DNA from: Stentor roeselii
Taxonomy: Eukaryota; Ciliophora; Heterotrichea; Heterotrichida; Stentoridae
Direction of reading: 5' to 3'
DNA: 64,000 nt
Assembly: GCA_006503475.1 (NCBI GenBank)
Contig: RSEH01000026.1
Span: 62,001-126,000 of the forward strand
Shown: positions 24,292 to 50,933 of the stretch, piece after piece
Position numbering within the stretch: position 1 is the first letter of the stretch
Layout of the letters: the number at the start of each line of letters is the position of its first letter
Translations under genes and position numbers: made by a program
Notes under the pieces: generated by a model
What the model was told of the DNA's origin: nothing
What the model saw: the letters and a program-made list of their open reading frames with translations, nothing else
Database searches by the model: none

Positions 24292-27200
24292 TTATTCTGG
24301 TTGAATTTTATTCACCCAAGCAAGCTTTAAATGCTTCTTTCTTGGATTATTTACTTTGGCATTGTCTAAGCTTGTGATTTGATTATTAGAACTCGGGCTG
24401 GAGCATTCTATTGTATCTGCATCTATTTTTTGGTTATTTTTTTTAGGATTAGACTCTGAATTCTCCTCTTCAGTATTCGATTTTCCTGAAGCTATCATTT
24501 TATTGACCCAATGGGGATGTTTTCTATGAACATAGGATTTAAAGGCATTAATCTTAAGTAAACACATTGTAATATAGTATCCAAACGTATAGTAAATCCA
24601 GTAAGATATAAATAAAGCATTGATTAATACCATAAGTAAGAATAAGAAGAACTTCGCCAATGAATCCATTACATTAGTCATGAAATAAAGTCCGCAATAG
24701 ATGGTTACTCCACATACAAGAATTGACCTCGTTTCCATAGAATTCAACTGCTCAGCATTATAAGGTTTCGCTTTTAAATGAAGAGTAAAAGCAACAAGTA
24801 TCACCATAAAAGTAGTAAGAGCTTGTACATGAATAGAAATACTTCTCATAAACACAGAACAAGAAATAATCCCAATTTTTCTGAATAAAATCACGAATTC
24901 CCAATAAAAGTACTCCATATGAAACCCTTTATGCAAGAACCCAAACTTAAGTAACTCTTTAGTTGTCTTTAATTGTGTCCTTTTCTTATACAAAAGAATG
25001 ATAATAAGAATAGGAACAAAAAAACACCAGAAAACAATGCAAGGAACTGTAACACTTACAACATAAAAATAATGTTCTTTGTCCCAGCACTTAATCGTCA
25101 TATCATCCACCAAGAAAGACCCGTGATTTCCAATTTCCATGCAGTTGAACATTGAAAAGTTAACCTTTGTGATAGATGCTAGGAAAAAAAAGACTTGCAC
25201 TGTGATTGAACCGATTATCTTTGATTTTAAGTCTGGAGTTTTGAAAAGTAATGATTTTGTCAGCCAGTATAAGGTAGAGAGGATTGAAAATCCGATTGGC
25301 ATGAAGTTTATTAGCATTAGTTTTGCGAAATATGGCTCTGTGTGGGATTTTAATAGACAGTCTATTGAAAATAATCGGTCTGAGGCTCCTACTGCTTGTT
25401 TTTGAACCTCGAACATTTTTTTTACTAGAGTTGGCCACTCAAGATTAAACGAAATCGTTAGAGCAACAATTTGTGTATAATTAGTAAGTATCTTAAAATA
25501 AACAGAGGTGATTGACTGTTCCTTATACGCAGAATTAATCGTAGAAGCAGTCAATACAAAGATAGCCAAACCTCCAGTGATCATAATAAAACTGATAACA
25601 ACAATATTCGTAGTCTGATCACCGCACTGAGCGCAATGGTCTTGCCCGTCCCTTGAATATCCTTGTTCACATCCCTGACAAAGCCTTCCAGTATATCCTT
25701 TCTCACATTTCTTCTCTAATTGCACATCATTCAGCTGTTCTTCAAGACAAGCTGCTGCGAGAGGACATTCATAAAAGATTTCACTTCTGTTGTCAGTCCT
25801 CCAGTACCCCAGGGCTGAAACCATGTCTGAGCCTCCATAACATTTAGCTCCAGTCGGACACTTTTTACATTCAGTTCCTGCAATATAGTTATAAGTGCCT
25901 GCGGCACAACGAACACATGAATCATCACCTTTCAAAGCTTCTCCAATAATGCATTCCCTTAAATGAAACTCAACGATTTCGAAACTCTCTGACTTTGAAT
26001 TGCTAAATTCGAATATCGTTGAAAATGAAACGTTTAAGTCTGACCCTGGGATTCCTCGAATGACTATTTGCGAAATGTTAAATTTTCCGTTTAAAGCTTT
26101 GAATTTTAATGATCCTGCTAAGGTGAATTTTTCAGTATCAACAGAAGCAGCAGCTAAAACACTACTACTCTCAGTAGTAACCAAATTATCATAATGATCA
26201 ATAGCATCTAAAAAGAAAAACCGAGTTAAATTCGCTCCAGGTGCAGTTTCAATAGGCAAGCTTTCCCCATCAGCAATTTTCACTTTACACGCATAAGACG
26301 CCAAATCTTTTCCATAAAACGCGAAATTTTCCTGAAAATCAACATCAACAAGTAAAGGTGGAAAATCATACCATTGAATGGCTCCTCCACTGACATCAGC
26401 TTGATTTTCCCAGAACTGACTTTGATTGACAATTAAATAAGCGCCTTCAAGATTCGAAACAAGGAAAATCGCTCCTCCTTGTCCTGAAAATCTAGAAAAA
26501 TTCGACATAAAAGCGTAATTTTGACTAAAAGAAGAATTTTTTATGTTCACTTTTGAGTTTGAAAGGTATAAAGCACCTCCTGTCGATGATGCACTTGAAT
26601 TGAATGAAGAAGAATTTATTGAAATTTGAATGAGACTTTTGTCGTTGTGAGCGAAAATCGCTCCACCTTTGGAAGAACTTTCGAGATTGGAAAAAGTTGA
26701 TGAAGAGATTGAAAGGACTTTACAGTCTGTGCAGAAAATGCCTGGACTTTGACTCGCGTTTCCGTCTGTTTAGGGATTACTTTGGATCGAGGAGTTGAGG
26801 AGGCTCAGGTTTGAATTGATTCCGATGTGAAGAGCTGTTCCTTCGAAGTTTGAGATATTTACTGATGTTAGATTTAAAAAAGTGTTTGACTCTACCATAA
26901 TCAAAGCTCCTTCTAAATTTTCAGTAAATCCCTCAAATCCACTTCTCAAAAAGTTGCATTTTCTACTTAAACCTTACGAGTTTTCACAATACGCCAAACA
27001 CTCAGCAGACCCAGTCCTAAAAAAAGACCCTTCAACATTCAACCTGGAATTAAAAATCATAAGAGCCTCACAAGTCCCTCTATAAAAGTTATTTAAAAAC
27101 TTGCATCCTTTGACAGAAACTTCCGAATTCGAATCAACAAACAAACTAGTTCCTTTTCCATTCAAATTATCAAAAACAGTAGATTGAATAGAAATAAGCG

Positions 27201-30200
27201 ACTGAGAAGTAACAAACAAATCAGAAGCACTTTTTCCAGTATTCGACTTAAACATCGAATTTTTGATTATTAACAAAGACTCAACAATATTAATACATCC
27301 TGATTTTTTCGCATCATTAGAAATAAACTTAGTGTTAATGATTTGGTTTTCATTGTAAGAATAATGAGAATAAATGCAAGATCCTTGAGACCCTGAAGAC
27401 TTTTCTATTATTGAGTCAGAGATGATGAATGTCGAGTTCTCATCAGTAAACAAAAACCCTCCTTTTCCAACAGCTCTGTTATTCGAAGCAGTGATATTCT
27501 GCATGTTTACTTCAGACCGAAGCGACAAAACAATATTCCCAAACAAACTTGCAGAATTATTAACAAAAGCAGAATTCTCAAAAATAGCAGAAGCTTTATC
27601 ACAAGCTTTTAAAACTGATGCAAAAGAATTTACATTATGTCTGAAAATTGACCCGTTATCATTTAAAATCATTTTACTTAAAGTGATGCTGGTTCCTGTT
27701 GTGTACTCGAAGATGTTATTTGATAAGACCAGTTGAGAAGAGTCGTATTTTCCAACAGCTAAAATCAGTTGTTGCCCTGCATTTAGTGAAAATTTGTTAG
27801 AGTCAATCAACAGGGCCAAGTTGATGTCAGGGGACAAAACAACTGTCTCTTCATCAGAATTTCCGATAAATGAATTGTTGAATAACGTCAAGGTCCCTGT
27901 GCACTTCATGTAAAAAATCATTCTTTTGTTGTTTTTAAACTCGCTACTTTTTATTGAACTTCCAGGTGCTAAACTGATGGAGTTACTTAAAATCACTAAA
28001 ATACTGTCAAAGTTATTTACAAATTCACTTCTTGTCAATGTGAGGAAAAGAGTCATACTCGGCCCTGGAGTGACATACAAGAAATTTCCAGAGTCTTCTA
28101 GATATGCTTTGTCCACTGTTAAAAAAGCTTCAGAGTACTTTTTAGAAATGTCGAAAAAAGGAGAAAATTCTATTCCTGAAGCGATTTCTGAAGCACTGTT
28201 GATTACTCGAACACCTGTCAATTCCAAGTTCCTAACACCTGCAGTGCGAATTCCATTCGAACACCTTAAAAACTCGATATTTTCAAAAGAAACCTTTTCA
28301 AAGACCAAGGCTTGAATGATGAAAACTGAGTTGATTTTATTTTGATAGTTATTATCAGCTGCTGTTATATTAAAGAACTTGTAAACTGCAGGGACTGTTG
28401 GATCATTTGAAGTTTTCCCGTTGTCTGAAAAGGCGAAGGTGAATAAAGAGTCGTAGTAAGTAAGTGAAGAGTTCGAGATGTGACTGTTGTTGAATTCGAA
28501 GTACTTGCTGACGCTTAATGAACCAAGTCTGCAGAAGTTGCCTTCGAAATTTAAATTTGTGAAGTTGACGTATTCAGATAAAGAAATTTGGATCAGGTTC
28601 TGGTTTTCAGCCTCGAAGTAAAAAGGGTTGGTTATTGCGTATCCTTGATTTTCCCTTATTTTCGTTAAAATCGAGTTGAAGACTTGCACTGGGTAATAAG
28701 GATTGTTTAAAAAATCAACACTATCTAACAGTATATGTTTCAAGTTATAAAAAACAAGAAGGTTCTCATATGCGAAGTTTGATTCAAAAATCGTGTTTTT
28801 TAGTTTAAAGTTCTTTGGAAGGAACGGGTAAGGGATCACTGAACATTTTTCACAGTATTCTTGAAGGTCATAAATGGAAATAACTTGAGAAATCGCTTCG
28901 ATATTACTGAAGGTGTTGTTTTCCATCACGATATTCGAGTAGTCCTTTCTTGAGTAGATGTTGAAAATTCTCGTTCCGACCAGATATGAAAATTCTGAGT
29001 TCGCTATCAACAAGTTGTTGAAGTTAAAGTCAACGAACTCCAAATCTAAAAGTTCTGACTCGTGTCTTAATTCTATTTCAATCAACTCCATGTTGGAAGC
29101 TGTATGTTCCACAAGGATCTCGTTTAACTCAAGTCGAAAGAAACCGGAAAAGTAAAAAAGTCGTGAATAGGAAAACAGGTTCATGGTGAAGTTCACGTTT
29201 TGAATTATAGCTTCTTTGAAACAGCTGATGGAGAGAAAGCCTGCCAAGCCGTTCCAGTAATTCAGTTCATACCCGTTATTAATAAACTTCACAACCCCTC
29301 CTTTATATACAAACCGTGTCAGGCGATTTGTGTCTTCACAATAAGAAGTCGACGTTTTAATCACAGCTGATCCAGGAGCAACAACAATATTAATAAAATT
29401 CACATTTTCCATCAAAAGTTCTCCTTTTATCACATAAATCAAAGAGTTATACTTAAGTCTCATGTTTTTAAACTCAACATTTTTGAAACTAAGTCTTTCT
29501 CCAAATAATGTGAAAAAACTGGATTGAGAGTTAAAGTCGCAAACTTTAGAATTCAGGTATTTTTCCGTCACCTCTGAGCCTTGGTCATTGTTGATTATCC
29601 AGCCGTAGTCTATTATTGCTCTGCAGTAGTCAACTTCTTGATATGATGGGTTTCCGTGGTACGAAGTGAAAACTTGGCTTTTGAATGTGACAGATGTGTA
29701 GATGGTGAACGACATTCTCATGAAAAAACCGTAGACTGGGACTTCGTTATCTAGGAAACAACCTTCGATTAGGGATTCAGAGCAATAAAGAGGCTCGATT
29801 ATTAGGTCATCGTATATGTAGACTAGCATCTCCATCATTGTTGTGTTTAAAAAATCGTAGTTGCCTCCCAGCATATAAACTTTTAATTTTCCGTAGTTAT
29901 TGATGAATTGGAAATAAGCTTCTGGGTCTGTTGAGGACCAATCTATAGATGAACTATGTCGGTACCGGTTCTCACTAGGAAAGTAGTAAAATACCTCAGA
30001 GCAATCTCCAAAATCATATTCGCAGCTAAAAGTATTGCAAGCATTATCACAAAATTTATCACCTAGCATTGAATTAAAGCACCCAGAGTTGCATTCTCCG
30101 CATTTAAAGTAATCATAATTGCAATTCTGGTTGTCACAAGCAGGTGTACAAACATTATCAATTAGTTCTAACTCAGAGCAACCATCAGAGCAAGAACAGT

Positions 30201-31422
30201 CGCCTCCATCAAAAGAACACTGACTTATATTACAAGCAAGATCACAAATATTGTCTGCAATCATATATGGGTAGCAAAATTGTCCACAGTTACAAGCGCC
30301 TCCATCGTAACCACAGTCTTGATTAAAACACTCCAATTCGCAGATCGAATTTACTTTCATTTCTGGAGTACAGCCTAGAGAGCAATAACATTGATGATTA
30401 TCATATGAGCAGTTCTGTGTATTGCAGCCGTCATCACAAACAAAATTGTATAGCATTTCGGGTAAGCATGAATCTGAACAAAGATTATCCAGCCCATCAT
30501 ACCAACACTCAGGAACATAGCATTCAGGATTATAAACTCCATCACTAATCATATGATAACTACAACCTGGGGCACATGAACAGTCGCCCTTATCATAAAA
30601 GCAAGCAGAGTTATTACAAGCTGAGTCGCAGTTTAAATCTCCGAGCATACTATCTGTGCATTCAGGTGGGCAAATACAATTCCCCATATCAATTTGGCAG
30701 CTGGTAGTATTACACCCTGGATCACAGACTGAGTTAAATTGCATTTCATGAGTGCAATTAACATCACAATAACAATCATAATTATCAAAAAAACATAAAG
30801 TATTGTTACAAACTGTATCACATTTTCCATTACTCAACAAAGCTCCATTGCAACCTGGTGCACAGTCACAGTCTCCTCCATCAAAGCTGCACTCAGTGAC
30901 ATTGCAGGCAGTATTACAAATTCCATCTCCAACCATAGTCACCTTACAGAAATTAGCACATTCTTTCACTGAACAAACCATATTATCCCATCCACATTCA
31001 TAGTTAAAACATGAATTTTCGCACTTTAAGTTAGACTTCATCGTTGTAAAGCATCCTGAAGCACACTCTCCCTAATTGAGGATTACGCAGAAATTGTTAT
31101 CAAAAAGACACTCTTTAGTGTTGCATTCTAAGTCACATACCCAGTTAGAGAACATTTTTTTGGTACAGCCATCAGTGCAGTAGCCACAGTCTCCAAAGTC
31201 AAATCCACACACATTCGATCTGCACATCTTGTCACATACCCCATCAGCCGATGTTTTGGTACATCCAGACCAAGCGCATTCAACCAAGCAGTCGCCTAAG
31301 TCAAACTGGCAAGGCTCTGACATGCATTCTAGATTACAAATATTATTTCCAAGCCATTCACTTTTGCACGCAGGATTACATGAACTGACCCTGACTGGTG
31401 CTAAGAATAGGAAGAAAATCAT
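24292..31422 (-). CDS. LNR / beta-helix / multi-span membrane protein, paralogue A
   Basis: Four exons, 31422-31087, 31071-26978, 26962-26781 and 26765-24292, give 7,086 nt or 2,361 residues. A signal peptide (MIFFLFLAPVRVSSC) leads into 14 Lin12/Notch repeats up to about residue 470, each with six Cys and an Asp/Asn end such as CNVTECSFDGGDC. The ninth repeat has lost a Cys (DGVYNPEC). A region of about 1,300 residues follows, rich in Asn, Ser, Phe and repeated xxFxNN turns, which looks like a parallel beta-helix. A Cys-rich module comes at about 1,805-1,920 (CVRCAAGTYNY, CKKCPTGAKCYGG, CEKGYTGRLCQGC), as in GCC2/GCC3-type segments. About eight membrane spans and a charged tail of roughly 95 residues end it. 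Cell-surface adhesion or sensing is inferred. Unlike B and C, it lacks the intron at the LSFK/NVEF junction (29481/29482). Confidence 0.85.
26766..26780 (-). other. 15-nt intron, gene A intron 3
   Basis: Sense GTAATCCCTAAACAG. It lies within the SSIQ-NGNAS stretch; the same position carries introns in B (37338-37352) and C (46262-46276). Confidence 0.9.
26963..26977 (-). other. 15-nt intron, gene A intron 2
   Basis: Sense GTAAGGTTTAAGTAG after CEN. Same position as B (37535-37549) and C (46459-46473). In all three genes the exon between this intron and the next is exactly 182 nt. Confidence 0.9.
31072..31086 (-). other. 15-nt intron, gene A intron 1
   Basis: Sense GTAATCCTCAATTAG after FC in the third LNR repeat. 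The first exon is 336 nt in A, B and C alike. Confidence 0.92.
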
Positions 31423-31427
31423 TTATA
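31420..31427 (-). promoter_or_regulatory. TATAAATG start context, gene A
   Basis: Reads TATAAATG on the coding strand; the last three bases are the start codon. Genes B and C have the identical string. Confidence 0.4.
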
Positions 31428-34400: not shown

Positions 34401-34872
34401 ACAGGATTCCTTTAAGATGTTTAAAGTTTCAATTATTTTCTGATTTTATCAGTGCAATTCAATCCAAAATCATAACTCTTCAAGAAATTAAACTAAAGTA
34501 ATTAATTATCAATTTTACTTTGAAATCACTGAAATCGGAATCACTCATAAGTTCCAGAATTCTTTTCACATGAATTATTCTTATCCTTTTCCTTCAAAAG
34601 ACTTATTTTTCAAAATTCCATTTTTTGATTTGCATAAAGAAATTCCTTAAATTTTAATTTCGTGAGTTTCAGTCCTTTCGGTTTAATGCCTTCATAAACT
34701 CATCATAGAAAAAGATTTGCTTATATAATCCATAGATTCTTTAATATTTCTCTTATTCTGCAGATTACCAATTTATTCAAATGTCTGATACTATATTCAT
34801 CATTTCACCAATAAAAAACTCAAATATCAAACAACTCCAGAAATAAAAGAAAATCTTAAAACCCTAACTAAA
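31428..34872. other. Gene-poor AT-rich spacer between paralogues A and B
   Basis: About 3.4 kb, the longest gap in the window. No frame over about 65 codons, and none resembles the flanking genes. The 500 bp upstream of A are G/T-rich on the plus strand; the 300 bp downstream of B are A/C-rich. No decayed copy of the LNR family, no transposon ends and no tRNA could be seen by eye. It could hold a non-coding RNA or be an origin region, but nothing supports this directly. Confidence 0.5.
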
Positions 34873-37800
34873 CTACTTATTTTCTGGAAAGACTTTAATA
34901 GTCCAAGCACGCTTGATATTTTGATTTGTTGATTCTTTTGCATTTGTTATTCCACCTATTTTATCTGCTGCACTGTTTTTTATTGTGCTTCGTTCTTCAA
35001 CTGTATTCACTTTATCAGTAGTCACAGACATTTGCTTTACGTTATCAATACTACCCAAGTTATCAATTCTTATCATTTTATTAACCCAAGCAGGATTTTT
35101 TTTTTTGACGTATTCTCTGAAAAACTTGAACTTCAAGAGAAATGATGTGATATAGTATCCGAAGGTATAAAAAATCCAATATAAAAGGAATGCTGCATTG
35201 ATCGCAACTATTAAAACGAACAAGCAAAGTTTTCCTATTGAATTTAGAGTATTTGTCATGAAATATAGTCCTGAATAAATAGTCACTCCTGACACAAGTA
35301 TTGACCTAGTTTCCATTGAATTCAATTGTTCAAAATTATAAGGCTTCGACTTAATATGCAGTGTAAAAGCCAACAAAATAACCACAAAAGTAGTAAGAGC
35401 TTGAATATGAATTGAAATATTCCTTAAAAAGACCGTGCAAGATATAATCGCAATTTTTCTAAACAATATCATAAATTCCCAATAAAAGTACTTAACTTCA
35501 AACCCTTTATGCAAGAATCCAAACTTAAGTAGCTGATCAGTCATCTTCAACTTTGTCTTATTCCAAAACAAAACACAAATAATCAAAAAAGGAACAAAAA
35601 AGCACCAGAAAAAAATACTCGGAATAGCGACAGCGATCATGTAAAAGTAATGCTGGCCTTCCCAGCACTTAATATTCATGTCATCAATTAAATAAGATCC
35701 AGAGTCTTCAATGCTCATGCAGTTAAACATGGAGAAATTCATTTTTATTATTGAAGCCATGAAAAAAAAGACCTGAACTGTCATTGATCCGATTATCTTT
35801 GATTTCAAATCTGGCGTTTTTATGCATAAGGACTTTAACACCCAGAATAGGGTGGAAATAATTGAAAAGCCGATTGGTAGGAGGTTGATTAGAAGAAGTT
35901 TGGCGAAATATGGCTCGAAATTTTTTTGGAATAGGCAGTCTATTGAAAATAAACGATCAGAAGCTCCTACTGCTTGTTTTTGTCCGTCGAATAATTTTTG
36001 GACGAGATCTGGCCAGTCAAGCTTTAAAGAAATCGTCAAAGCAACTATTTGAGTATAATTTGTAAGTATCTTAAAATAAATCGAAGTTATCGACTGCTCC
36101 TTATAAGCTGCATTAATCGTAGATGCCGTTAAAATAAAAATAACAACCGCTCCGCCAGCAAAAACAAGACTAATAAAAATAATATTACTCGTCTCATCTC
36201 CACATTCCGCACATTTATTTTCTCCATCTCTAGAAAATCCTGCTTGACATCCTTGACACAACTTTCCCGAATATCCTCTTTCACACTTTCTTTTAAGATA
36301 GAAATCATTCAGGTTCTCTTCGAGACATGCAGAAGGAAGAAAGCATTCATAAAAAGTGTCACTCATGTTGTTTACTCTCCAATATCCTTCAGCAGAAACG
36401 ATATCTGGACCGCCAAAACATTTGGCGCCTTTTGGACACTTTTTACATGGGCCTCCTGCTTCGAGGCAGTAGGATGTTGGTGGACATCGAATGCATGAAT
36501 CATCTCCTTTAAGTGTCTCTCCAACAACACATTTCCTTAAAAAGAACTCCATAAACTCATTCGCTTCACCAACCCTATCAAATTCAAACCTAGTAGAAAA
36601 CGAAACATTAACCATCGAAGCAGGTCTTCCCTTGATGACAATCTGCGAGATATTAAACGTTCCTTGAAAAGCCTTAAACCTGACATTTCCATTGAAAGTA
36701 AACCTCTGACTATCCACAGCGGTAGCCATAACAATACTATTAGATTCAGTAGTAACAAGTTGACCATAATGATCAAGAGCATGTAAAATATAATAATTGC
36801 TAGAATTAGCCCCAGGGGCTAATTCATTCGAGAACTGTTGATGATGAGCCTTTTTCAATTTACAAGCAAAAGAAGCGAAGTCCGGTCCATAATCAGCTGA
36901 ATTTTCCTCAAATAAAACTGAATCAATCTCAGGTTTAACGTCGTACCATTGAATCGCCCCACCGCTTATCATTGCTGAGTTCTTCTTGAAAACGCTGAGG
37001 GAAATAGAAGAACGAGCACCTTTTAAACTTGATGAAAGGAATAAACCACCACCTTGGCCTGAAAAAAGACTTTCGTTAAAAAATGCCTGGCTTTTTGAAA
37101 ATGATGAGGATTTTATATCGGTTATTGAATTTTCTAGGTAAAGAGAACCGCCTGTTAAGGCTGAACAGGATTCAAAGGATGAGGAGGTTATTGAGATTTG
37201 ATTAAGGGTTTTGTGACTTTGGGAAAATATTGCACCTCCTTTAGTTGAACTGTGAAGGTTGGAGAAAAGGGAGGATTTTATTGAGAGGGAATTGCAGTCG
37301 GAGCATAAAATCCCTGAACCTTGATCAGCATTTCCATCTATTTACAATTTACTGAAAATCGAAGAATATCTTGTATTCATTTTCGAGTTACTACCAATAA
37401 AAAAAGCTGATCCTTCAAAATCTGAAATATTGGCATAGTTTATATCCAAAACAGTGTCTGACTGAGCAGTAATCAAAGCTCCATCATAACTCCCTAAAAA
37501 TTCCCCAAATCTAGATCTCGTAAACTTGCAATATCTAATTAAAACTTACGAATGATCACAAACCACAGCACATTTCGAAGACCCATTCAAAAAAACCGAG
37601 TCCTCAACATTCATAATCGAGTCATAAACAACAAATAGCCCACAATCATTTTTTCCAAAATAATTAAAAAATTTGCAATTTTTTAAAAAAACTTGACTAT
37701 TCGCTTCAACTTGAAAAGCAGTCCCTTTTCCATTAAAATTATCAAAAATTGTATCTTTCACAGTGAGTTCCGAATGAGAACTGACAAAAACATCAGAAAT

Positions 37801-40800
37801 CGATTTTCCTGAATTTTTTTCAAAAGTTGAATTTTTTATATTGAGACTAGTCTCGATTAAACTGATGCAACCTGAAAGTGAAGCAATGTTTGAGTTGAAC
37901 TTGGAGTTGATTATTTGGCTTTTTGTGTAGGAATAATGGGAAAAAATGCAAGATCCTTCAGAGGCTGATGATTTTTCGCAGGTTGAGTCGGTTATTGTGT
38001 AGGATGAGTTTTGGTCTATGAATAAAAAACCTCCTCTTCCAGAGGCCTTGTTGCTTGATGCGTTGATGTTGGATAGTCTTAGGATTGAGTTAAGGGAAAC
38101 TAACAGGTTTCCGTATTCTGTTGAAGTGTTGTTTAAAAATAAAGAGTTTTTGAAATCTGCATCTACTTTGTTATTCAAACACATTATTGAACAGATGGAG
38201 TTTTCGTTGTGTTTGAATATTGAACTTGTGTCTGAAAAGATTAGTTTACTTGAGGAGATGCATGAGCCTTTGTTGTATTCGAAAATATTTTTGTAGGAGA
38301 GGAATGATGAAACTCCTGGCAGACCAATATAAAAGATCAACTCACGACCTGAATTAAAAGAAAATTCACAGGATTTAATAACAAGATTCAAACCATTATC
38401 AGCTACTATCAAAGAAGTTTCGTTATCTGAGTTTCCCTCAAAGTAACTCCTCATGATCATCAGATCCCCTGAGCATATCATATTAAAAAGTAACCCTTTG
38501 TTATTCTCAAACTGAATATTTTCAATAAAACTGCCATCAACTAACTCAATTCGATCGTTGATATAAATTAAGTTTTTGTTAATATTTTCAATCATCTGAC
38601 TGTTAAAAAATTCAAACAATAATGTCGAACTTTGAGATGATGAAAGATGCAAAAACTGTTGAGATGATTTAAAGAGAATATTTTCGACTTTGAAATATGC
38701 TTCATTGTAAGGATTATGATCTATTCCTGATATTTCGTTTGAAATACTATTGATTATCTGGATATCGACTATTTCTAAATTTCTAACTTCGGTGGTTTTT
38801 ATTGCTTTTGAACATCTTAAAAATTTGGTATTTTTAAAGAGGATTTTTTCATAGTTTAACTTCATTATTTCGAATATGGCCTGAGTTTTATCAGTCACAT
38901 TGTTATCTTCAAGTTGCAGGTCTCTGAACACATAAACAGGTTGAATTTTCGGATCATTAAAATTTTTATTATTGTCTGCAAACTCAAAAGTAAGCATACT
39001 TTGCTTCTCAGATAATAAATTATTGAGGATATTACTATTCCTGAATTCAAAATATTTATTGGTGCTGATGTTCATCAATTTACAGAAGTTATTTTGAAAC
39101 TTTAGGTTTGTTAAGTTACTATAATAGGCTGAGGTAGCAAAAATCAAGCTATTGCACTCACTTGTTATTGGAAGAGTATTTAGACTAAGGTATCCATTGT
39201 TTTTATTGACCTTTGATATAATCACATCCATCATTGACAATGAGGAATTTCGATTTTTAAAAAAGTTGAGACTATCAAAGGCTAGTCTTCCAACATTCAT
39301 CAAGCTAATTATATGATTTCCAGCAATATTATAGGAAAAATTTGAATTTTTCACTAAAAAATAATTCGGAAACGAAGGATAAAGTATTCCATCCTTATTA
39401 GCAGGTTGCCATCCATAAACACATTTCTCCATCATCTGAGGCATCGAGTACCAGATGATGGATTGATTGACTTCGATATTGCTGAAGGTGTTTTTTTCAA
39501 TCAAAACATTCAAGCATTCGATTTCACTGGTGATACTTATGAGCTTATTCGCAACAATGTACGAGAAATTCGAGTTAGTGATGACAACATGCTCTGCATT
39601 CAAGTACTCCGGTCCTAAGTCAAGCATGCCACTTCTATCACCCAGTTCAATTTCAATAACACCATCATTTGAAGCCGCGAATTCAATACTAACTCTATTA
39701 ATTTCAAATCGATAAAACCCAGCAATTCGAATCATATTCGAAACCGAAAACAAATTCATCGTAAAGTTAACATCTTGAATAATTACTTCTTTAAAACATC
39801 TGATATCAATAAAGCCTCCAAGTTGATTCTCACTTATCACTTCAAACCCATTGTTGATAAAACTGACGATGCCAACTTTATAAATAAACCGACTCAGCAT
39901 GTTTCCTCCATTGCAGACTGAATCTGCAGTCTTTATGACAGCTGACTTATGAGAAACGACAATATTAGTAAAATTTACATTTTCTAGAAGAAGTTCGCCT
40001 TTAGTAATGTTGATCAATGTTTGATACTCCATCCTCATGTTCCTGAACTCGACGTTCTAATTAGATTTTACCTTAAAACTTAAACGGTTGCCGTTTAATG
40101 TGAAGAAACTGGTTCCTGAATTTGATTCACAGTATTTGTGATCTATGAACTTATCTGGAATATTTCCTCTGTCTGATAATAATTTGAAATTCTTGCGGAA
40201 GGTATATCGGCAGTAGTCCATTTCACCGAATGAGGGATTTTCATGATAAGAAGTAAAAATTGTGTTTCTGAATGTTAGAGATTTTAAGACATTAAAATAC
40301 ATTTTCATGAAAAAACTGTAGATTGGTCTCACACCAGTTGCAAAGCATCCATTAGTGTTGTTTAGTGTGCAATAGAGAGGCTCAACTATCATACTTGTAA
40401 AGTTATATTTAAGCATTTCCATTGTTTTATTCTTGAAGGTAAAGTCACCCCCTAGCATGTAAACTTTAGCATGTTCAGAGTCTTTAGTATCAATAAAGTA
40501 GTCTTTCCAAATATTTGCATTTCCATTGGTATTTCCATTACCATTTCCATTACCATTTCCATTACCATTTCCATTACCATTACCATTTCCATTACCATTT
40601 CCATTTCCATTACCATTACCATTTCCATTTCCATTAGCATTTCCATTTCCATTAGCATTTCCATTTCCATTAGCATTTCCATTAGCATTTCCATTTCCGT
40701 TGGCATTCCCATTCCCATTGGCATTTCCATTGGCATTTCCATTTCCATTGGCATTTCCATTGGCATTTCCATTCGCATTCCCATTGGCATTTCCATTCCC

Positions 40801-42300
40801 ATTGCTATTCGCATTAGAATTCGCAGCTAGAATTCTCATTAAATTTCCATTACTGGGCCGATAATAAAAAACATCCGAGCAATCCCCAAGTTCATACTGA
40901 CAGCTGAATTTATGACAATTCTGATTACAAACCAAATCTCCAACCATATTCTCAAAGCATCCAAAATCACAAAATCCGCACTGATAATAATCAAAAAAGC
41001 ATTTATTGCTACTACACTTCAAGTTACAAGTATAATCCTTCAACATCAAAGAGTTGCATCCTTCTCCACATAGACAGTCCCCGTTATCAAAGAAGCATTC
41101 AGTAATATTGCAAACAGGGTCACAAACGTTATTCCCAATCATATCAGGATAGCAAGATTGTGCACAGTTACAAAGTCCTCGATCGTACCAACAACTGGAG
41201 ATGTTGCAAGCGGGGTCGCAGATTGAATTTTCAAGCATTTCTGGACTACACCCTGGGGCGCAGAAACACTTCGAGTTGTCGAAGTTGCATGAAGAGGTGT
41301 TGCAGGGCAAGTCGCAAATACTGTTCGATAGCATTGAATGTAAACAGCCTTCTGAGCAGAGACAATCGTTTCCGTCGTAGTCGCAACTTGGAACGTTGCA
41401 TTCTACGTCGCAGGTACCGTCGTTTCTTATATATCCGGAACAGCCTGGAGCACAGTTACAGTCGTCTTTATCGTAAAAACATTCGGGGTTGTTGCATTCT
41501 GGGTTGCATATTGAGTTGCCTTGCATTTGGGATGTGCAGGATGACGGACAAATGCAATTTCCCATGTCGTATTGACAGCTGGTAGTGTTACATTCAAAGT
41601 TACATACTGAGTTAAATTGCATTGAAAATGTACATTCAGATTCACAATAGCAGTCGTAATTATCAAAGTTGCATGCGGATACATTGCACAGAGTGTCACA
41701 TTTTCCGTTTTCTAACAAGCCAAGATTACATCCTGCATTACAGTCACAGTCTCCACCATCATAGCTACATTTCTCGACATTACAAACCTGGTCACATTTT
41801 CCGTCTCCAACAGCAGAGATATCACAGAATTGACTACATTCATTTATATTGCACATCAGATTATCCCAGCCACATTCATAATTAAAGCACTCCAAGTTGC
41901 AAGCCAAATCAATTTTAATATCATCAAAGCATCCCGATGCACAAGTTCCCTAAGTAAAAAATACACAAAAGTTATTGTCAAAGTTGCATTCTTCTGTATC
42001 GCATTTCTTATTACAATTGCTATCCATAAACATCGATTCAGTACAGGCACCATTGCAAAAGCCACAGTCTCCAAAGTCAAATCCGCAGACATTCAAGTTG
42101 CAGGAACTGTCACAAACCCCGTCAGATGCTACTTTGTTACATCCAGTCCAAGCACATTGGGGAAGGCAGTCGCCTAAGTCGAAATCGCAAGGCTTTGACA
42201 TGCACTCAAGATTGCAAATTCCATTTCCTTTCCATGTGCTGAGACAAGCAGGGTTGCAAAAGTTCGCTCTTGCTGAAGAAAAAGTCAGAAAGAGAAGCAT
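34873..42300 (-). CDS. LNR / beta-helix / multi-span membrane protein, paralogue B
   Basis: Five exons, 42300-41965, 41949-40072, 40056-37550, 37534-37353 and 37337-34873, give 7,368 nt or 2,455 residues. Architecture is as in A: signal peptide (MLLFLTFSSARAN), 14 LNR repeats with all Cys kept, then, at the join to the beta-helix region, about 103 residues of Asn-Gly/Asn-Ala/Asn-Ser repeats (40513-40821) not found in A or C. The beta-helix-like stretch, the Cys-rich module (CIRCPPTSYCLEAGGPCKKC, CERGYSGKLCQGC) and eight membrane spans follow. The last part is highly similar to A (PDLKSKIIGSMTVQVFFF; FGFLHKGF; NSMETRSILVSGVTIYSGL). The tail carries WVNKMI just after the last span and AWTIKVFPENK at its end, matching AWVNKIQPE in A. 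Function is inferred only: cell-surface receptor or adhesion. Confidence 0.85.
37338..37352 (-). other. 15-nt intron, gene B intron 4
   Basis: Sense GTAAATTGTAAATAG, joining SIF-N to GNADQ; shared position with A and C. Confidence 0.9.
37535..37549 (-). other. 15-nt intron, gene B intron 3
   Basis: Sense GTAAGTTTTAATTAG after CDHS; shared position with A and C. Confidence 0.9.
40057..40071 (-). other. 15-nt intron, gene B intron 2
   Basis: Sense GTAAAATCTAATTAG between LSFK and NVEF. Present at the same place in C (48978-48992), absent in A. Confidence 0.9.
40513..40821. repeat. In-frame hexanucleotide repeat encoding Asn-Gly/Asn-Ala
   Basis: About 309 bp of six-base units, AATGGN and AATGCN in the coding sense (CCATTT/CCATTA/CCATTG families on the plus strand). 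They encode alternating Asn with Gly, Ala or Ser, about 103 residues. The part nearest the beta-helix is almost pure Asn-Gly; the part nearest the LNRs is mixed. The array sits between the last LNR and the beta-helix region. In A and C this place holds a short Trp-Ser linker. Other frames across it are open only because of the repeat. Confidence 0.92.
41950..41964 (-). other. 15-nt intron, gene B intron 1
   Basis: Sense GTATTTTTTACTTAG after FC; same place as in A and C, with a 336-nt first exon. Confidence 0.9.
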
Positions 42301-42305
42301 TTATA
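42298..42305 (-). promoter_or_regulatory. TATAAATG start context, gene B
   Basis: TATAAATG on the coding strand, including the start codon. Confidence 0.4.
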
Positions 42306-43613
42306 ACATATTTTTTTCAACAGAAACAAAATGACTCATTCGAATATTTCTTTAGAAAGTTATAAAAAGTTAAGAATTTTTAAAAGATTTGATATGAAGG
42401 ACCTCTGCTAGGATTATAAGAAGGTGAAAAGTTTTCATTGAATTTTAAGAGTTGGATTCGAGAACTTTGATTAGAAAATCTTTGATTTTAGAAGATTGAA
42501 TAATTGGAATTTGGAATTAATAGAAGTTAGACTTTGATTAAGGAAAAATGAATAGTTTTATATAGGACTAGGAATTTTTTGGATAAAATTTGGAAGAATT
42601 TTTTTAGAGGGCTTTAGGTACTTCGCTTATATAGGGTATTCTATCTTAAATAATTAAAATACATAAAATTTTAGAGGATTGTCTTAGAATATGAGATAAC
42701 TAGTTTATTTGATGATTATCCTTGAAAATTACTTAATTTGAAAGTATAATTAAATATAAGTCAATATGAGTAAAAATTTTTAAATAGTTTAACTTTTTAT
42801 TTTCCATAAAACATCACAGAGCTTGGATTTTCATAAAAAATATATATCAATAGATTAATCGAAGTGCATTTCGGTCAATTTCAAATCTGAAAAGTTCAAG
42901 GTTTACAATATTAATAAACTAGCAGATATTCAAAATTAGAAGCTAATCATTTAAGTATTAGTCTAATATTTAACATCTAGATTATCAGTTATCCCTGCTT
43001 CAAGTTAAAACTTACAAATATATTCAAAAGTCCTGAAATTTTCAAATTAATATGAATAGGTTATTAAAAGACTATAAAGATAATTAACTATATGGGATTG
43101 TCTCAGAGACATAAAATCTTATTGTTTATGAAGATAAAATTCGAAAGAGTTTTCATAAAATGATTCAAAATTTTATAGGAATTATTTAAGTTTATACATT
43201 TTTTACATTTTTGTACCTTTAATACTTAAAGTCAAATTTTCAAATACCTTTTATATCTTTCATATTCATATACACAAAAAATTTTTATCGATATCTAACA
43301 TTAAGCCTTTGTCAATTTTGGATATTTTATGATTGAATGTATTAAGAGTATTAGCATGTAATTTTAATGTTTGAAACCTTATATTTTATGAAATCATCTG
43401 ATTAATTTAACTGTAAGATAATAACTTTAGTATTTTCCAAAGTAGTTTTAATTAATACATCAAAGATAATAATTCTTTGAATTTCTTCGCAATCCTTATC
43501 AAGTATTCAGATTTAGACGACTCAACTTGTACAAAAAATTCGACAAAAAAAAAAAAATGATTTCCATGATTAACTCAATCCTTCAATATTAACCTACTTA
43601 AACTATTAACTCT
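42306..43613. other. Intergenic region between paralogues B and C
   Basis: About 1.3 kb, AT-rich. G/T- and G/A-rich on the plus strand next to the start of B; a 13-A run near 43545 before the end of C. No gene recognised. Confidence 0.5.
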
Positions 43614-46600
43614 CTAATCATCCTTTCTAAATAAAAAATTCCTGTTCTTAAATTTTTCAATAGTCTGTCTTGAAAGCAAACTAAGTGGAAGGATTTTATT
43701 AGAAGCTACTCTTTGATGCAAGTTAGAGTCAAATCTAGATCTTCCAGGCGATTTCTGATCGATTCTACCTTTTTCAACTGAATCAATCTCAATATCAGAC
43801 ATATCATGAAAGTTCATGTTGTTATCTGGCTTTTCATGTTGGTTTACTTCAATTTTAGACTTTCCAGGTGAGCTTTGATTGATTCTAAATCTATTTGTCG
43901 AGGTTTTGTTTATTGGAGAGTTTTTTCGATCAGAAGAAAAATCTTTTGCAATAATTGTTTGTTCGGTACTTATAAAATCTTCAACTGTTACCATTTTGTT
44001 TACCCAGCCAGGGTTTTTTCTTATGACGTATCTTTTGAAGCAGTTCATCTTTAGTAAAATGGACGTGAAATAATAACCGAAACAATATAAAATCCAGTAT
44101 AATAAAAATATTAGGTTGGCTAAAACAATTATAATGAATAGAGCAAATTTTGCTACTTCGTTTAATTTATCGGTCATAAAGTAAAGGCCTGAATAAATGG
44201 TGACTCCTGAAACAATAATCGACCGAGTTTCCATTGAATTAAGTTGATTGGCAGTATACGGCTCTGATTTAATATGAATCATAAATGCAAATAAAATAAT
44301 AGCAAAAGTAGTCAAAGCCTGTAATTGAACCGAGTAATTCCTCAAAAACACAGCACAACAAATAATCGCGATTTTTCTTATCAAAATCACGAATTCCCAA
44401 TAAAAGTACTTACTTTGAAACCCTTTATGCAAAAACCCAAACTTCAAAAGTTCAGTCTTTGAATCCAGTTGTCCATGTTTCTTAAACAACATGAAACTAA
44501 TAAGAAGAGGAACAAAAAAGCACCAAAAACATATTCCAGGAACAGCAACAAACAACAAATAAAAGAAATGCAGTCCTTCCCAGCACTTTAAATCCAAATT
44601 ATCAACTAAAAATAGTCCAGATCCTTGAATAGTCATACAATTAAACATGGAAAAGTTGATTTTAATGATCGAAGCCATGAAAAAAAAGACCTGGATTGTC
44701 ATTGAACCAATAATTTTCGATTTTAAGTCTTCAGTTTTACTGATCTTTGACTTGATCACCCAGTACAAGGTTGATAATAGAGAAAAGCCCAAGGGTGTTA
44801 AGTTAATCAAAATTAGTTTCGCGTAGTAAGGCTCCATTTTATTTCTTAATAAACAGTCGATTGAAAAAAGTCTCTCAGAAGCTCCAAAAATTAACATCTG
44901 CGCAGAAAAGAACTTCCTGACAAGATACGGCCAGTCTAAATCGAAAGAAATGGTTAAAGCTATTATTTGACAGTAGTTTGTAAGTATCTTAAAGTAAACT
45001 GATGTGATTGACTGTTCTTTGTAAGCTGAATTTATTGTTGAAGCTGTTAGGATAAAAATTATTGCTATTCCGCTCAGGATGATTAAAATGATGAAAATTA
45101 TGCTGTTTGTGTCGTTGTCACATTTTGAGCATTTATTTTCGGTGTCTTTTGAGTAGCCTATTTCACAGGTTTGACAAAGGTTGCCTTTGTGGCCTTTTTC
45201 ACATTTTTCTGATAGGTCTGAATCATTTCGGTTTTCTCGGAGACATGCAGATGAAATGAAACATTTGTAGAATATGTCACTATTGTTATCTTTTCGCCAG
45301 TAACCTTCATCTGATACTATTGATGAACCTCCATAACATATTGCACCTGTTGGGCATTTCTTGCAAGCAGCTCCAGCCTCCAAATTATACTTATTATCAG
45401 GACAAGAAATACAAGAATCATTCTGTTCCAAATACTCTCCAACCAAGCACTCTCTTAAAATAAACTCAACACTTTCATTAGCAGGTTTTTCCCACTCAGC
45501 ATATTGAAAACTAGTCGAAAAGAAAACCATAACAAAAGAATTAGGTTTTCCCTTAATCAAAATATCAGAAATATTTGCAATTCCATTAACAACCTTAAAA
45601 CGAACAGTTCCCGAAAGAGTATAATTCGGTGTTTCTATTGATGCAAACACAATTCCAGAATTTTCAGTCAAAACCAGCTGATTATAATGATCATTTGACC
45701 GAAGTTGAAAAAAAGATGAATATTTGACTCCAGGGGTTATTTTTATTGGACTTTGTGTTTCTATTGAAAGTTTTAAACTATGAGCAAAAGATGCTATATC
45801 AGGACCGTATCTTGCAAAATTTTGAATAAATTCTGATGATGAAGTCTCTGGCTGGTTGTTGTACCATTGAATCGCTCCTCCACTTACATTCGCGGAATTA
45901 TCGAAAAATCTGCTGAAGTTCAAGAAAAAAATAGAATTTTTTTTTGTTGATTTCGCAAAAATCGCACCACCTTGACCTGCGAAATCGATATTTTGTTGAC
46001 TTGGCATTGCGGAATTTCTGATGAATTTGGAGTTGTTTACTTCGATTGCGGAATTTGACAGGTATAGCGAACCTCCAACGATTGCTGAGCAGGACTTGAA
46101 ATAAGAATTTTTTATTGTAACTTTAACTTCATCGTCATTATTGTGAGTTGAAATTGCACCTCCTTTGTCGGAGCATTCAAGATTAGTAAAATTAGAATGA
46201 AGGATATTTAAAGATTCGCATTCATAGCACAAGATCCCTGCAGAAAGTTTAGAATTTCCATCTAATTGATAAATACCTCGTATAGAAGAACTTGATAAGG
46301 TCAGTTTTGAGTCTTTTCCAATATAAACTGCAGTACCTTCGAATTCGGAAATATTTACTTTGTTCAGAGTTAATTTTGAGTCTTGATCTACTTTCAGTAG
46401 TGTTGCTGAACGATCTTTGAAGAATTTTTTAAATGAACTGTTGAAAAATCCACAATTTCTAAATAATTCTTACGAATTTTCACAGAAAACTGAACAGTCA
46501 GAAGATCCTACTATGAATTTAGTGTCATAAACTTCAAGATTAGAATCCAAAACTTCGAAAATTCCTATTCCATTGTTATCATCATGATGATTATAGAACT

Positions 46601-49600
46601 GGCATTGATTAAATCGAACCTTGCTCTTACCATCAATATGAAAAGATGTAGTTTTTGATGAAAACCCGTTAAAAGTTACATTTTCTGAAGTCAGGTAGGA
46701 AGAGCTAAGATAAAAATTAGAGCTACGCCTTCCTAAATTTCCATAAAACGACGAGTTTACCAAAGAAAGTTTCGATTCAACAAGATTTATACACCCAGCA
46801 TTTCCAGCATTATTATGATGAAAAATCGTATTAGTAATTTCATTATTTTTATTAGAATAATGAGAAAAAACGCAAGATCCTTCACTTCCTGAGTTTTCAT
46901 TGATAACTGAATTTTTAATCACAAAACTAGAGTTTTGGTCAATAAACAAAAATCCTCCTTTAAACTTCGCTGTATTCAAATTAGCTGAAATATTATCTAA
47001 AGTCAATTTAGAGCTAAAAGAAACAATCAAGTTGCCGTAGTCTGTGGCTGTATTATTGAAAAAAATAGAGTTTTCAAAAGTCAGTGTCACTTTATTAGAA
47101 GCTTGCAAAATAGACCCAAATGAATTCGAGTTGTGACTGAAGTTAGAGTCTTTGTCAGTGAAAACCACTTGGCTGATACTGAAGCAGGAGCCTTTGTTAA
47201 ATAGGAAAAAGTTGCTTGAAGACATTAGAATTGAAGGAAGAGAAGGACTTAAGGCAAAAATAAGCTCTTTTCCTGTGTTGGATAAGAAATTGTTGGAGTC
47301 CATGAAGAGGTTCAACCCGAAGTCAAGGTAAATTACAGAAGTATTCGTATTTTTGTTACTTTTAAAAGTATTTCCTGAAAATATAACTTTTCCCGAGCAC
47401 ATTATATTAAATAGTAAACCTTCGTTGCCTTCAAACTCACTTGTTCTCACATGACTTCCATCTACCAGACTAAGACGATCATTTAAAAAAACCAGATTCG
47501 AAGCCTTATTTTCTTTTATTAAACTTCCAGTAATTTTCAGAAGTAGTTCAGAACGATCTGAAGTTGCAAAACTAAGAAATTGGCCTGAATTTTCAACTTT
47601 TGCATTATTTATCATCACTTCAGCTTCATACCCTGGGCTTGCATCAACTCCTGACACTGATTCCGAAGTACTGCTTAATATTTGAATCCCTTCTATTTCT
47701 AAGTATCGAACTTTATATGCCTTGATTGCAGTTCCACACATATAAAAAAGAATATTTTCAATGTAAATCGTGTCTTTTAACACTTCTGAAAATTCAATCA
47801 TTGCTTTTTTATTGGAATTTAAAGAATTGTTCTCAAATTTCAGGGATTGGAATTTTATATTTGCTTCTGAAGGATCTAATAAAGTTTGATTACTTGAAAA
47901 TTCAAAGTAAAATAAGGAGTTGTTACTGGATACTGTGGAATCTAGCATTTCACTTGATTTTAATGTGAATTTTTCGGAAATGTCGAGAAATTTTCCTAAG
48001 GGGCATTCGTTGGATTCGAATTTCAGGTTTTGGAAAGTTGAGTTGTAAGTAGATGATGAAAATATTAAACTTTTACAGTCATTTAGTACTGGAAGAGTGT
48101 TTTTTTCTGCATACCCACCGCTATTTTTAAGTTTAGACAGTATTGATTCAAAGATAATCAATGACGATTTTCTATTTCGAGTAAACTCTAAGTAACTTAA
48201 ATTCAACTTTCCAACATTCTGCATATTTATCAGGTATTCATAAGCAAGGTTCGAATAAAACTCGATATTATTTAATACGATCTGTTTCGCATAAATATTA
48301 TAAGCCAGTCCATTTTTATCAGATTCCTGATAGTTCAAAATGCAATTTTTTAAAGAAGGTGGCTGATAAAACTCTATCAAAGACGTGTTGACTTCAATTT
48401 CACTGAAGGAGTTGTTTTCAATCAAAACATTTTGACAGATGTTTGAAGATATAAGCAGAAGTCTATTCGCGACCAGGTTAGAAAAGTTGCTGTTGAGTAA
48501 AGAGATATGCTGGCTGTTTAAGTACTTTGGTCCTTGGTCTATCATTTTTTTATCTTGAGTCTGGTCTATTTCTATCAAATTACCAGTGGAAACTGCGAAC
48601 TGAATATTTATTTCATTTAACTCTAAACTGAAAAAACTTGAAAATTTCAACAATTTCGAGTATCCTGAGAAAAGATTCATTGAAAATTGAACATTTGATA
48701 TTATTATTTCTTTAAAGTTGCATAATGATAGGAAACCTGCTAAAGGGTTTTCAGTAATAACTTCAAATCCATTATTTATAAAAGACACAATCCCTCCCTT
48801 ATAAATAAATCTTGAAGACATAACACTACTCTGACATGAGCTATAAGAAGAGTTAATAACCGAAGAATCAGGATTAACCACAATATTCGTAAAATTAACA
48901 TTTTCCATCAAGACCTCTCCAGCAACAACATTAATAATCGATTTCATTCCAAGTCTCATATTCCTAAACTCAACATTCTGCATAAAACTTACCTTGAAGC
49001 TAAGTCGATTTCCATTTAAACTAAAAAAGTTGCTATTTGCATTTTCCTTACAAAAAGAGCTATCCAAGTACTTTTCATTGATTTTTACTCCCCGGTCATT
49101 GTAAAGGCCGTTACCTTTTTTCACAGTAAACCTGCAGTAGTCGATACCCTCATACATAGTCAAACCATGATCTGACTGAAAAATCATGTTTTTGAATGTT
49201 AGAGAGGTGGTAACTGAAAAAGACATTTTTACGTTAAATGTATAAACTGGACGATCATTCTGAGTAAAGCATCCAGTGATATTTTGATAATTGCAGTAAA
49301 AAGGCTCAACTAGGAAGTTGGTATATTTGAAGTCTCCTAAAATTGATTTTTGGGGATTATTGAATAAATAATTACCTCCAAACATGAAGATTTTCACTAA
49401 AATATCATTTTTTGAAAAATCGAAGTAATTGTTTGGGTTTAATGATGACCAGGATGATGATGATTCTAACTTGTAAGTTGTTGTATTTGGCCAGTAGTAA
49501 TAAATTGTTGAACAGTCTCCTAAGTCGTATTCGCATTCGAATGTGTTGCATGATTGGTCACATTTTTTATCGCCTTTCATTGATGTAAAACAACCTGAGC

Positions 49601-50933
49601 TGCAGTCTCCACATTTAAATCCATCAAACGAACATGCAAATGAATTGCATTGAGAATCGCATTGATCGTTCAATAAATTTAAATCGGTACATCCTGCTGA
49701 GCATAAACAGTCAGCTCCATCAAGCCAGCACTCGCTGATGTTACAAATAGGGTTGCAAATGTGATTGTTTATCATATCTGGAAAGCATCCTTTTGCACAA
49801 TTACAAGAACCTCCATCCCACCAGCAGTTTGAATTGTTACATGCTGGGTCGCATTTCGAATTTTCAATCATATCCGGACTGCATCCAGGTGCGCAGAAAC
49901 ATTTAGAATTATCATATCCACATGCAGAATTATTGCAAATTTCATCACATACAGAGTTATCTATTAGCTTAGGTGAACATCCACGTGCACAAAAGCAGTC
50001 TTGTCCATCATTCCAACAATCAGTAACATTACACTCTTCATTACAATGCCCATCATCTATCATATCAGGACTACACTTTCCACTGCAATTACAATCACCT
50101 CCATCATAAAAGCATGCTGACTTATTACAATCGATATCGCAAAACGAATTTCTAAATTTTTTATTCAAACATTCATCTGGACAAATACAGTCACCATTAT
50201 CATAATAGCAACTTGTTGAATTGCATTCATAATCGCATATTGAGTTGAATTGCATTGTCTTGTTACATGACTTTTCACAGAAACAGTTATAATTGTCGAA
50301 ATTGCACTCAGTTGTATTACAAACAGTATCGCACTGATCATTCATCAAAAGTTCATAATTACAACCAGGGCTACAGTCGCAGTCTCCCCCGTCAAAGCTG
50401 CAAACTGAAACATTACAAACCTTGTCACATTTTCCATCATGAACAGAAGTGATCTTACAATACTTCACACATTCTTTGCTTGAACAACTCGAATTATCCC
50501 ATCCACATTCATAATTAAAGCATTTTAAGTCACAATCTGAATCACTTACCATGTAATCAAAGCATTTAGATGCACAATCACCCTACTTAAAACTTACGCA
50601 TTTATGGTTGTCGAAGAGACATGCTTTATTATTACACTTTTCATCACAATCGTCGTTCATGAAGAGAGTTTCATTGCAGTCTTTACTGCAATAACCGCAG
50701 TCTCCAAAGTCGAATCCGCAGATGTTTGAGTTACATTCTTTATCGCAGATATCATCAGATGAATTTTTTGGACAACCTGACCAGGCACAGTCGACTAAGC
50801 AGTCACCTAAATCGAAGTCGCATGGTTTTGACATGCATTCTAAGTTGCAGACTCCATTACCCTTCCAATTAGAATTGCACTCTGGGTTGCAAGCAGTAAC
50901 TATAGCGCAAGTTAGAAGGAATAAAAAGACCAT
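43614..50933 (-). CDS. LNR / beta-helix / multi-span membrane protein, paralogue C
   Basis: Five exons, 50933-50598, 50582-48993, 48977-46474, 46458-46277 and 46261-43614, give 7,260 nt or 2,419 residues. Signal peptide MVFLFLLTCAIVTAC; 14 LNR repeats; linker YYYWPNTTTYKLESSSSWSS where B has the Asn-Gly array; beta-helix-like region; Cys-rich module (CISCPDNKYNLEAGAACKKC, CEKGHKGNLCQTC); eight membrane spans. The cytosolic tail is the longest of the three (about 160 residues) and contains an internal duplication, RINQSSPGKSK and RIDQKSPGRSR, about 40 residues apart. Intron 2 is 15 nt with no in-frame stop, so it would be read as VSFMQ if retained. Function unknown; surface receptor or adhesin inferred. 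Confidence 0.85.
46262..46276 (-). other. 15-nt intron, gene C intron 4
   Basis: Sense GTATTTATCAATTAG, joining SSIR to GNSKL; shared position with A and B. Confidence 0.9.
46459..46473 (-). other. 15-nt intron, gene C intron 3
   Basis: Sense GTAAGAATTATTTAG after CEN; shared position with A and B. Confidence 0.9.
48978..48992 (-). other. 15-nt stop-less intron, gene C intron 2
   Basis: Sense GTAAGTTTTATGCAG between LSFK and NVEFRNMRL. It contains no in-frame stop and 15 is a multiple of three, so frame alone does not reveal it. Comparison with B (intron) and A (uninterrupted LSFKNVEF) does. Confidence 0.82.
50583..50597 (-). other. 15-nt intron, gene C intron 1
   Basis: Sense GTAAGTTTTAAGTAG after KC in the third LNR repeat; shared position with A and B. 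Confidence 0.9.

Follow-up and report, generated by a model that had tools for sequence, protein, structure and literature searches.

The window analysed here, a 64,000-nucleotide stretch of the Stentor roeselii genome (bases 62001-126000 of the 213,673-base contig C178, within the 44.4-Mb assembly of 522 contigs in which the family was sought), carries three giant genes, G1, G2 and G3, which follow one another in the same orientation on the minus strand, separated by 3450 and 1313 bases, and encode paralogous LNR-headed membrane proteins (Table 1). The first-pass annotation had described three collinear paralogues of about 2,360-2,455 residues, and this is borne out by the 2361, 2455 and 2429 aa obtained after joining the frames over 15-nt introns. 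Every frame break in the trio is a stop within such a GT..AG intron; the introns at offset 336 and near offset 4450 (4751 in G2, after an insert in that gene) are common to all three, one near offset 4640 occurs in G1 and G2, one at 2229 is found only in G2, and other modelled family members have introns at similar offsets. A code reading UGA as Trp was rejected, because the frames become no longer under it and none of the 7245 codons of G1-G3 is TGA. Together with the 15-nt introns and the telomere repeats present at some contig ends, the lack of TGA codons fits a heterotrich ciliate that uses the standard code. The proposed order of domains (signal peptide, LNRs, beta-helix, Cys module, membrane spans, tail) was likewise confirmed in each gene.

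The LNRs are canonical by Pfam, PF00066 reaching 59.5-166 bits against a curated cut-off of 21.2 in the six exon pieces of G1-G3 that hold the array, that is, in the first exon of each gene and in each further array-holding exon. Their cysteine cores, spaced mostly by 32 residues, number 13-14 per protein, in keeping with the 14 repeats that had been predicted and that are present in G1, and a chance origin of the pattern was rejected after a cysteine-pattern test. Notch receptors have EGF repeats and a single-pass membrane helix with three LNRs nearby. That the Stentor proteins are Notch-like proteolytic receptors, with LNRs masking a cleavage site, would suit the canonical repeats, but is hardly credible for polytopic proteins whose 13-14 LNR cores (24 in the related locus L011, none in several others) are N-terminal and more than 1000 residues from the membrane, and in which Pfam scans gave no EGF match.

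C-terminal to the array stands a stalk of about 1200 residues, for which the AlphaFold model and PDB structural alignment support a parallel right-handed beta-helix of the pectin-lyase-like fold, as had been supposed; the Chlam_PMP repeat scores slightly above its cut-off in G1 and G3. Lyases, epimerases and glycosidases are frequent among the top fold matches, and a carbohydrate-modifying role has been suggested for MRC2 of Tetrahymena in the excerpted text of its report (PMC10901506), so the proteins could be surface enzymes whose beta-helix cleaves or modifies glycans. We consider this very unlikely, as a fold does not by itself establish function, matches to adhesins and phage fibres are equally good, and no other large part of the protein is less conserved than the stalk. 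Just after its LNR array, G2 has an Asn-Gly/Asn-Ala low-complexity insert of about 100 residues (approximately residues 488-588; window ~40522-40824, minus strand), absent from G1 and G3; a Pfam TrAA12 match in G2 (31.0 bits, barely above cut-off) falls mostly within the Asn-Gly insert and was set aside.

Between stalk and Cys module, an Ig-like stretch may be read from the strands of an otherwise unusable model. The Cys-rich module expected before the membrane was recovered as DUF7630, with a weak resemblance to ephrin-receptor modules. In A3, an alignment of 22 family membrane-region sequences, DUF7630 was found in 21/22 and Ephrin_rec_like in 6/22 at E<=0.1, the former falling below its cut-off in G2 and G3 and the latter below cut-off in the tables seen; a profile match to the EphA2 Cys-rich region had an E of 0.011. 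A search of the open-licence literature for 'DUF7630' found no paper.

The first-pass annotation counted about eight membrane spans, and the polytopic domain stands; as to the count, nine helices, with the N-terminus outside and the C-terminus inside, appear to fit hydropathy and loop charge better and are the topology we prefer from the sequences. Nine hydrophobic helices can be drawn across the 22 A3 sequences, with borders taken from a low-confidence model (pLDDT 36.5). Two of them are weak, with mean best 19-residue hydropathies of 1.03 and 1.19, and these helices, 2 and 8, exceed 1.0 in 13/22 and 12/22 members. Net loop charges mostly agree with this orientation, being -1.6, -1.6, +0.6 and -1.0 outside and +0.3, +0.4, +3.6, +0.2 and +2.6 inside; an odd number of helices with the N-terminus outside also places the positively charged tail, which follows the membrane domain in G1-G3, on the inside. 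Two outside loops have invariant cysteines, and several charged or polar residues (e.g., K263, N267, Q270, E461, K468 and Q486) are invariant in all 22 members. Sequence search gave no PDB match for the domain.

Identity within the trio is 58% in the LNR array, 60% in the Cys module, 68% in the membrane domain, 42-46% in the stalk and 33% in the tail. These figures bear on whether the proteins are purely structural adhesins or coat components, held by a polytopic anchor with no part in signalling. The long stalk, the 34-50 N-glycosylation motifs per window protein and the size of the family would all agree with such a role, which we nevertheless judge unlikely, given that no other part is as conserved as the membrane domain, which keeps invariant charged and polar residues that a mere anchor would not need.

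The three-gene array is real, but its extent was understated, for 51 loci, spread over 37 contigs, carry the membrane domain. Two membrane-domain queries gave 58 matches each, and from the matches of one of them the 51 loci were obtained by merging gene pieces (on C22, C119, C332 and C40) and dropping a contig-end fragment (C63:114702) and a 51-residue match on C472; further queries recovered the same loci apart from C472, plus one degenerate copy on C407. Membrane-domain copies with internal stops, on C22, C102, C119 and C407, are probably degenerate genes. At 39/51 loci the 9 kb upstream contain an LNR match of the same strand, which is missing at 12 (on C146, C506, C515 twice, C215, C53, C170, C332, C47, C119, C316 and C102), several of which are degenerate or near a contig end, these counts resting on LNR searches that scored the best candidates only. 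Frames of up to 3991 aa with LNR matches, not upstream of any membrane-domain locus, were seen on C116, C324, C207, C405, C466, C191, C206, C151, C196 and C376, and may represent different LNR architectures, or genes with a membrane part that escaped detection. A search for relatives gave 79 pattern matches in viral contigs and 191 in prokaryotic contigs, none of them confirmed, and a single NCBIfam match was taken as chance.

Modelled proteins have from 0 to 24 LNR cores: 14 in L010, 12 each in L009, L018 and L012, 24 in L011, one in L013, two to four in all eight modelled intronless members, and none in L014, L017, L019, L020 and the incomplete L015 and L016. These models are automatic and script-made, and L015 (cut by a contig end), L016 and L022 (cut by the fetched stretch) are incomplete or doubtful; the 16-nt introns called in doubtful models are probably false. 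In a tree of 22 membrane domains, 14 intron-bearing members split from the 8 intronless ones at 100/100, and G1-G3 group at 100/100.

Chromosomal position was also considered, since the genes might be variable surface antigens expressed singly from chromosome ends. Within 10 kb of a contig end lie 22/51 loci and 13/26 of the intronless clade B, where at most 23.5% would be expected, and the family includes degenerate copies and one mosaic. Still, the intron-bearing clade A, to which the window genes belong, is not enriched there (4/15); the clade labels of unfetched loci come from open-frame length and identity, not from the tree. The repeat CCCTAACA, given as the telomere repeat of the heterotrich Blepharisma in the portion of the source available (PMC9942806), was present at just 6/56 contig ends tested, and only 4/51 loci are less than 30 kb from an end bearing it, so that many contig ends may be assembly breaks. 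As most tested ends are without telomere repeats, the clustering was not counted in favour of subtelomeric antigens, and together with the purifying selection described below this makes such a function distinctly unlikely.

An indication of how the family is built comes from L018, at the left, telomere-repeat-bearing end of contig C85, compared with L009, a fourth paralogue that begins at the right edge of the window. The two are 72.0% identical over 1162 aligned stalk residues and 43.6% in the membrane domain. Among the 231 pairs of 22 members (L015 was excluded from A3 and from the pairwise and bootstrap comparisons; L022 was represented by no more than 270 aligned membrane columns and L016 by a partial ectodomain), 230 show higher identity in the membrane domain than in the stalk stretch, with a mean difference between membrane and ectodomain identity of +12.4 (standard deviation 7.3), and L009/L018 is the only exception. 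DNA identity in 150-base steps is 67-90% over the coding ectodomain, 46-62% beyond it and 52-69% upstream of the start, and dS is 0.89 in the ectodomain and saturated, hence not computable, in the membrane domain. The nearest relatives of the L018 membrane domain in the genome are C515:159134 (68%), C146 (65%), C506 (57%) and C515:11567 (55%), with L009 at 44%, whereas for the L009 stalk exon the closest match is L018 (73%), followed by C178:181857 (43%). When the membrane domains of 11 clade A members were bootstrapped, L018 was nearest L016 in 499/500 replicates and L009 nearest L010 in 500/500. Informative sites in the last 700 residues place the switch at about residue 1895, at the end of the Cys module and some 20 residues before helix 1, with 90 sites to 14 for L009 on the left and 106 to 21 for L016 on the right.

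On this sequence evidence L018 is a probable mosaic of an L009-like ectodomain on the membrane domain of another subgroup, and it looks like an LNR head on the membrane domain of an LNR-poor subgroup, because L016 (incomplete), L017 and L013 have 0-1 LNR core. An assembly join is the less likely explanation, in that the membrane sequence of L018 is at most 68% like any other copy found. L018 thus shows that ectodomain and membrane domain can apparently be exchanged; it is the one case found, 31 loci lying outside the fetched set.

Of seven pairs in which dN/dS was tried, five were computable for each part, the values being rough because several dS exceed 1: 0.13-0.34 in the ectodomain (L009/L018, L019/L020, L024/L027, G1/G2 and G1/G3) and 0.05-0.14 in the membrane domain (L019/L020, L024/L027, L024/L025, G1/G2 and G1/G3). 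The tested genes are therefore kept by purifying selection, with no sign of an average arms race. Both the mosaic and these ratios bear on a role in mating or self recognition akin to that of MRC2, MTA and MTB of Tetrahymena, with conserved membrane ends and variable outer parts. In the sections available of the work describing them (PMC10901506), MRC2 belongs to the mating-type recognition complex and has eight predicted transmembrane helices and a pectin-lyase fold, while MTA and MTB combine type-specific ectodomains with terminal exons that hold transmembrane helices and a Cys-rich GFR domain; L018 has the same form of conserved end and variable outer part. The Stentor family is however dispersed over some 51 loci, its ectodomains are under purifying selection in the five computable pairs, and no paired cassette locus was seen (no search was aimed at one), all of which leaves a mating function improbable.

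Table 1. Coordinates of the features discussed (window numbering, except where a contig is named)
Feature	Position	Strand	Remarks
Gene G1	24292..31422	-	2361 aa; 15-nt introns at gene offsets 336, 4445, 4642
G1 LNR array	29998..31380	-	Residues 15 to ~470; 14 repeats, one without a cysteine; Pfam PF00066 and cysteine pattern
G1 beta-helix stalk	26278..29490	-	~Residues 640-1700; AlphaFold model reaches residue 1476 only; Chlam_PMP
G1 Cys module	25618..25959	-	~Residues 1807-1920, before membrane; DUF7630, weakly ephrin-receptor-like
G1 membrane domain	24538..25617	-	~Residues 1921-2280; nine helices by hydropathy and charge
Gene G2	34873..42300	-	2455 aa; 15-nt introns at offsets 336, 2229, 4751, 4948
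G2 putative Ig-like, Cys and membrane region	35086..36849	-	Aligned in A1 and A3
Gene G3	43614..50933	-	2429 aa; 15-nt introns at offsets 336, 4460
G3 putative Ig-like, Cys and membrane region	44004..45776	-	Aligned in A1 and A3
L009, 5' end	63751..64000	+	Fourth paralogue; continues past window end; ectodomain partner of L018
L009 region	C178:123338-133337		
L018 region	C85:1-9200		

Beside the array, two adjoining protein kinase genes, alike in size and Pfam score (window 51685-53361 and 53933-55633, minus strand), are perhaps a tandem duplicate. At 12624-13397 on the plus strand lies a gene for a SAM hydroxide adenosyltransferase (PF01887, E 1.6e-52, and PF20257), a family found mainly in prokaryotes, and a horizontal gain is possible.

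Taken together, the LNR stack, the stalk, the Cys module, the multi-helix domain, purifying selection and the single ectodomain swap, along with the conservation of LNR array, Cys module and membrane domain against a variable stalk and tail in the trio, lead us to regard G1-G3, tentatively and with slightly less than even confidence, as belonging to a family of giant, modular contact receptors of the cell surface, possibly channels. The LNR stack and stalk would stand off the cell and bind a surface (that of prey, a partner, the substrate or self); the Cys module could then transmit strain or a conformational change to the nine-helix domain, and this domain might open as a TRP-like channel or signal as has been proposed for the alveolate CRMPs. 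The outcome would be calcium-dependent, for example contraction, exocytosis or ciliary reversal, and many outer variants would be borne by fewer membrane engines. The first-pass annotation had proposed a ciliate-specific surface system for adhesion, mechanosensing or self recognition, and of this the receptor-like surface architecture stands, each of the three roles being possible.

A possible kinship of the membrane domain with TRP channels is a lead given by profile matches. PF06011, which we take to be the fungal type of TRP channel family, matched 4/22 A3 members at E<=0.1 (L013, L018, L020 and L028; best 2.9e-6), and in the genome search 26 matches at that threshold included 12/51 family loci, all 12 over profile positions 278-359, which correspond to the C-terminal helices; the all-family consensus scored 24.3 bits and that of clade A 17.8. 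Several results weigh against the contact-receptor reading and its channel component. The best family score was 27.8 bits (26.8 by hmmscan), leaving none of the 51 loci above the curated cut-off of 28.5; G1-G3 had no PF06011 match in the Pfam scan (E<=1) or the A3 scan (E<=0.1), nor had the clade B consensus; and when the A3 profile was compared with two stronger TRP-like proteins from the same genome, the probability was 4.4% and the E 0.0092. Moreover, 14/26 PF06011 matches lie outside the family, several over the same profile stretch, for which reason the shared register is weak proof. The AlphaFold prediction of the Cys and membrane part from three sequences, at the pLDDT already given, yielded an unusable membrane fold, and the CRMPs and MRC2 were compared with the Stentor family by published description, not by sequence. 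The best PF06011 matches of the genome are non-family Cys-rich proteins, L049 (C254), L050 (C86) and L051 (C53), above cut-off in the genome search; rescored as proteins, L049 and L051 are slightly under it, and the TRP-like protein of L051 had no PDB match by sequence.

A bolder and more doubtful form of the contact-receptor reading supposes a head-swapping repertoire: some fifty giant sensors whose LNR/beta-helix heads, variable in length, would be joined by recombination, at a point close outside the membrane, to a small number of nine-helix channel or signalling engines of TRP/CRMP type, making touch, prey or partner recognition combinatorial.

The family could not be named from the first inspection, which holds for the LNR-headed form, unreported in the literature found, but not for the remaining layout, which is paralleled by the CRMPs and MRC2. 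In the parts available of the reports (PMC9815656, PMC9670195), CRMPs combine a Cys-rich module with nine C-terminal transmembrane helices in Apicomplexa (five are predicted in Tetrahymena), act in triggered exocytosis, being required by Toxoplasma to secrete its rhoptries and by Tetrahymena to release mucocysts, and have been proposed as contact sensors. Those described there (T. gondii CRMPA/B, Plasmodium CRMP1-4 and Tetrahymena CRMP1/2) are large, with Cys-rich ephrin/EGF-receptor-like modules before the C-terminal polytopic domain, an arrangement also seen in the Stentor family (DUF7630 in 21/22), and a figure key names a parallel beta-helix repeat among their domains; the same parts mention no LNR array and give 2-4 copies per Toxoplasma or Plasmodium genome, against about 51 loci in Stentor. 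MRC2 is similarly polytopic with a pectin-lyase-fold domain, but is a single protein with eight helices rather than the nine favoured here, and LNRs are not mentioned in the text available. The PF06011 channels resemble the family in the C-terminal helices of the 12 matching loci, and differ in that all scores are below 28.5 bits and G1-G3 are unmatched. Chlamydial Pmp-type beta-helix proteins share the Chlam_PMP repeat of G1 and G3, while the Pfam scan found no autotransporter match, C-terminal membrane helices being present instead. Canonical LNRs also occur in the LDPGs of the copepod Oithona, which, as far as the consulted part of the report states (PMC8301441), have at most five LNR and 13 LNR-like domains, are secreted in 49/75 cases and are LNR-only or combined with proteases, unlike the 13-14 LNR cores on a beta-helix stalk and polytopic anchor in the trio. 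In the open-licence literature, surveyed in part, we found no LNR array of comparable length on a polytopic beta-helix protein, and no paper treating 'Stentor' and 'LNR' together. By analogy, the overall layout is a putative variant of a known alveolate kind, with the LNR head as the difference.

To our knowledge, most of the molecules with which large ciliates detect contact and select a response are unknown. A conserved membrane engine with exchangeable heads would provide concrete contact-sensing candidates in these organisms, and the Stentor family would extend the CRMP/MRC2-type layout to a heterotrich-like ciliate, with a use of LNRs, up to 24 cores in one protein, that appears unlike that of Notch or of proteases.

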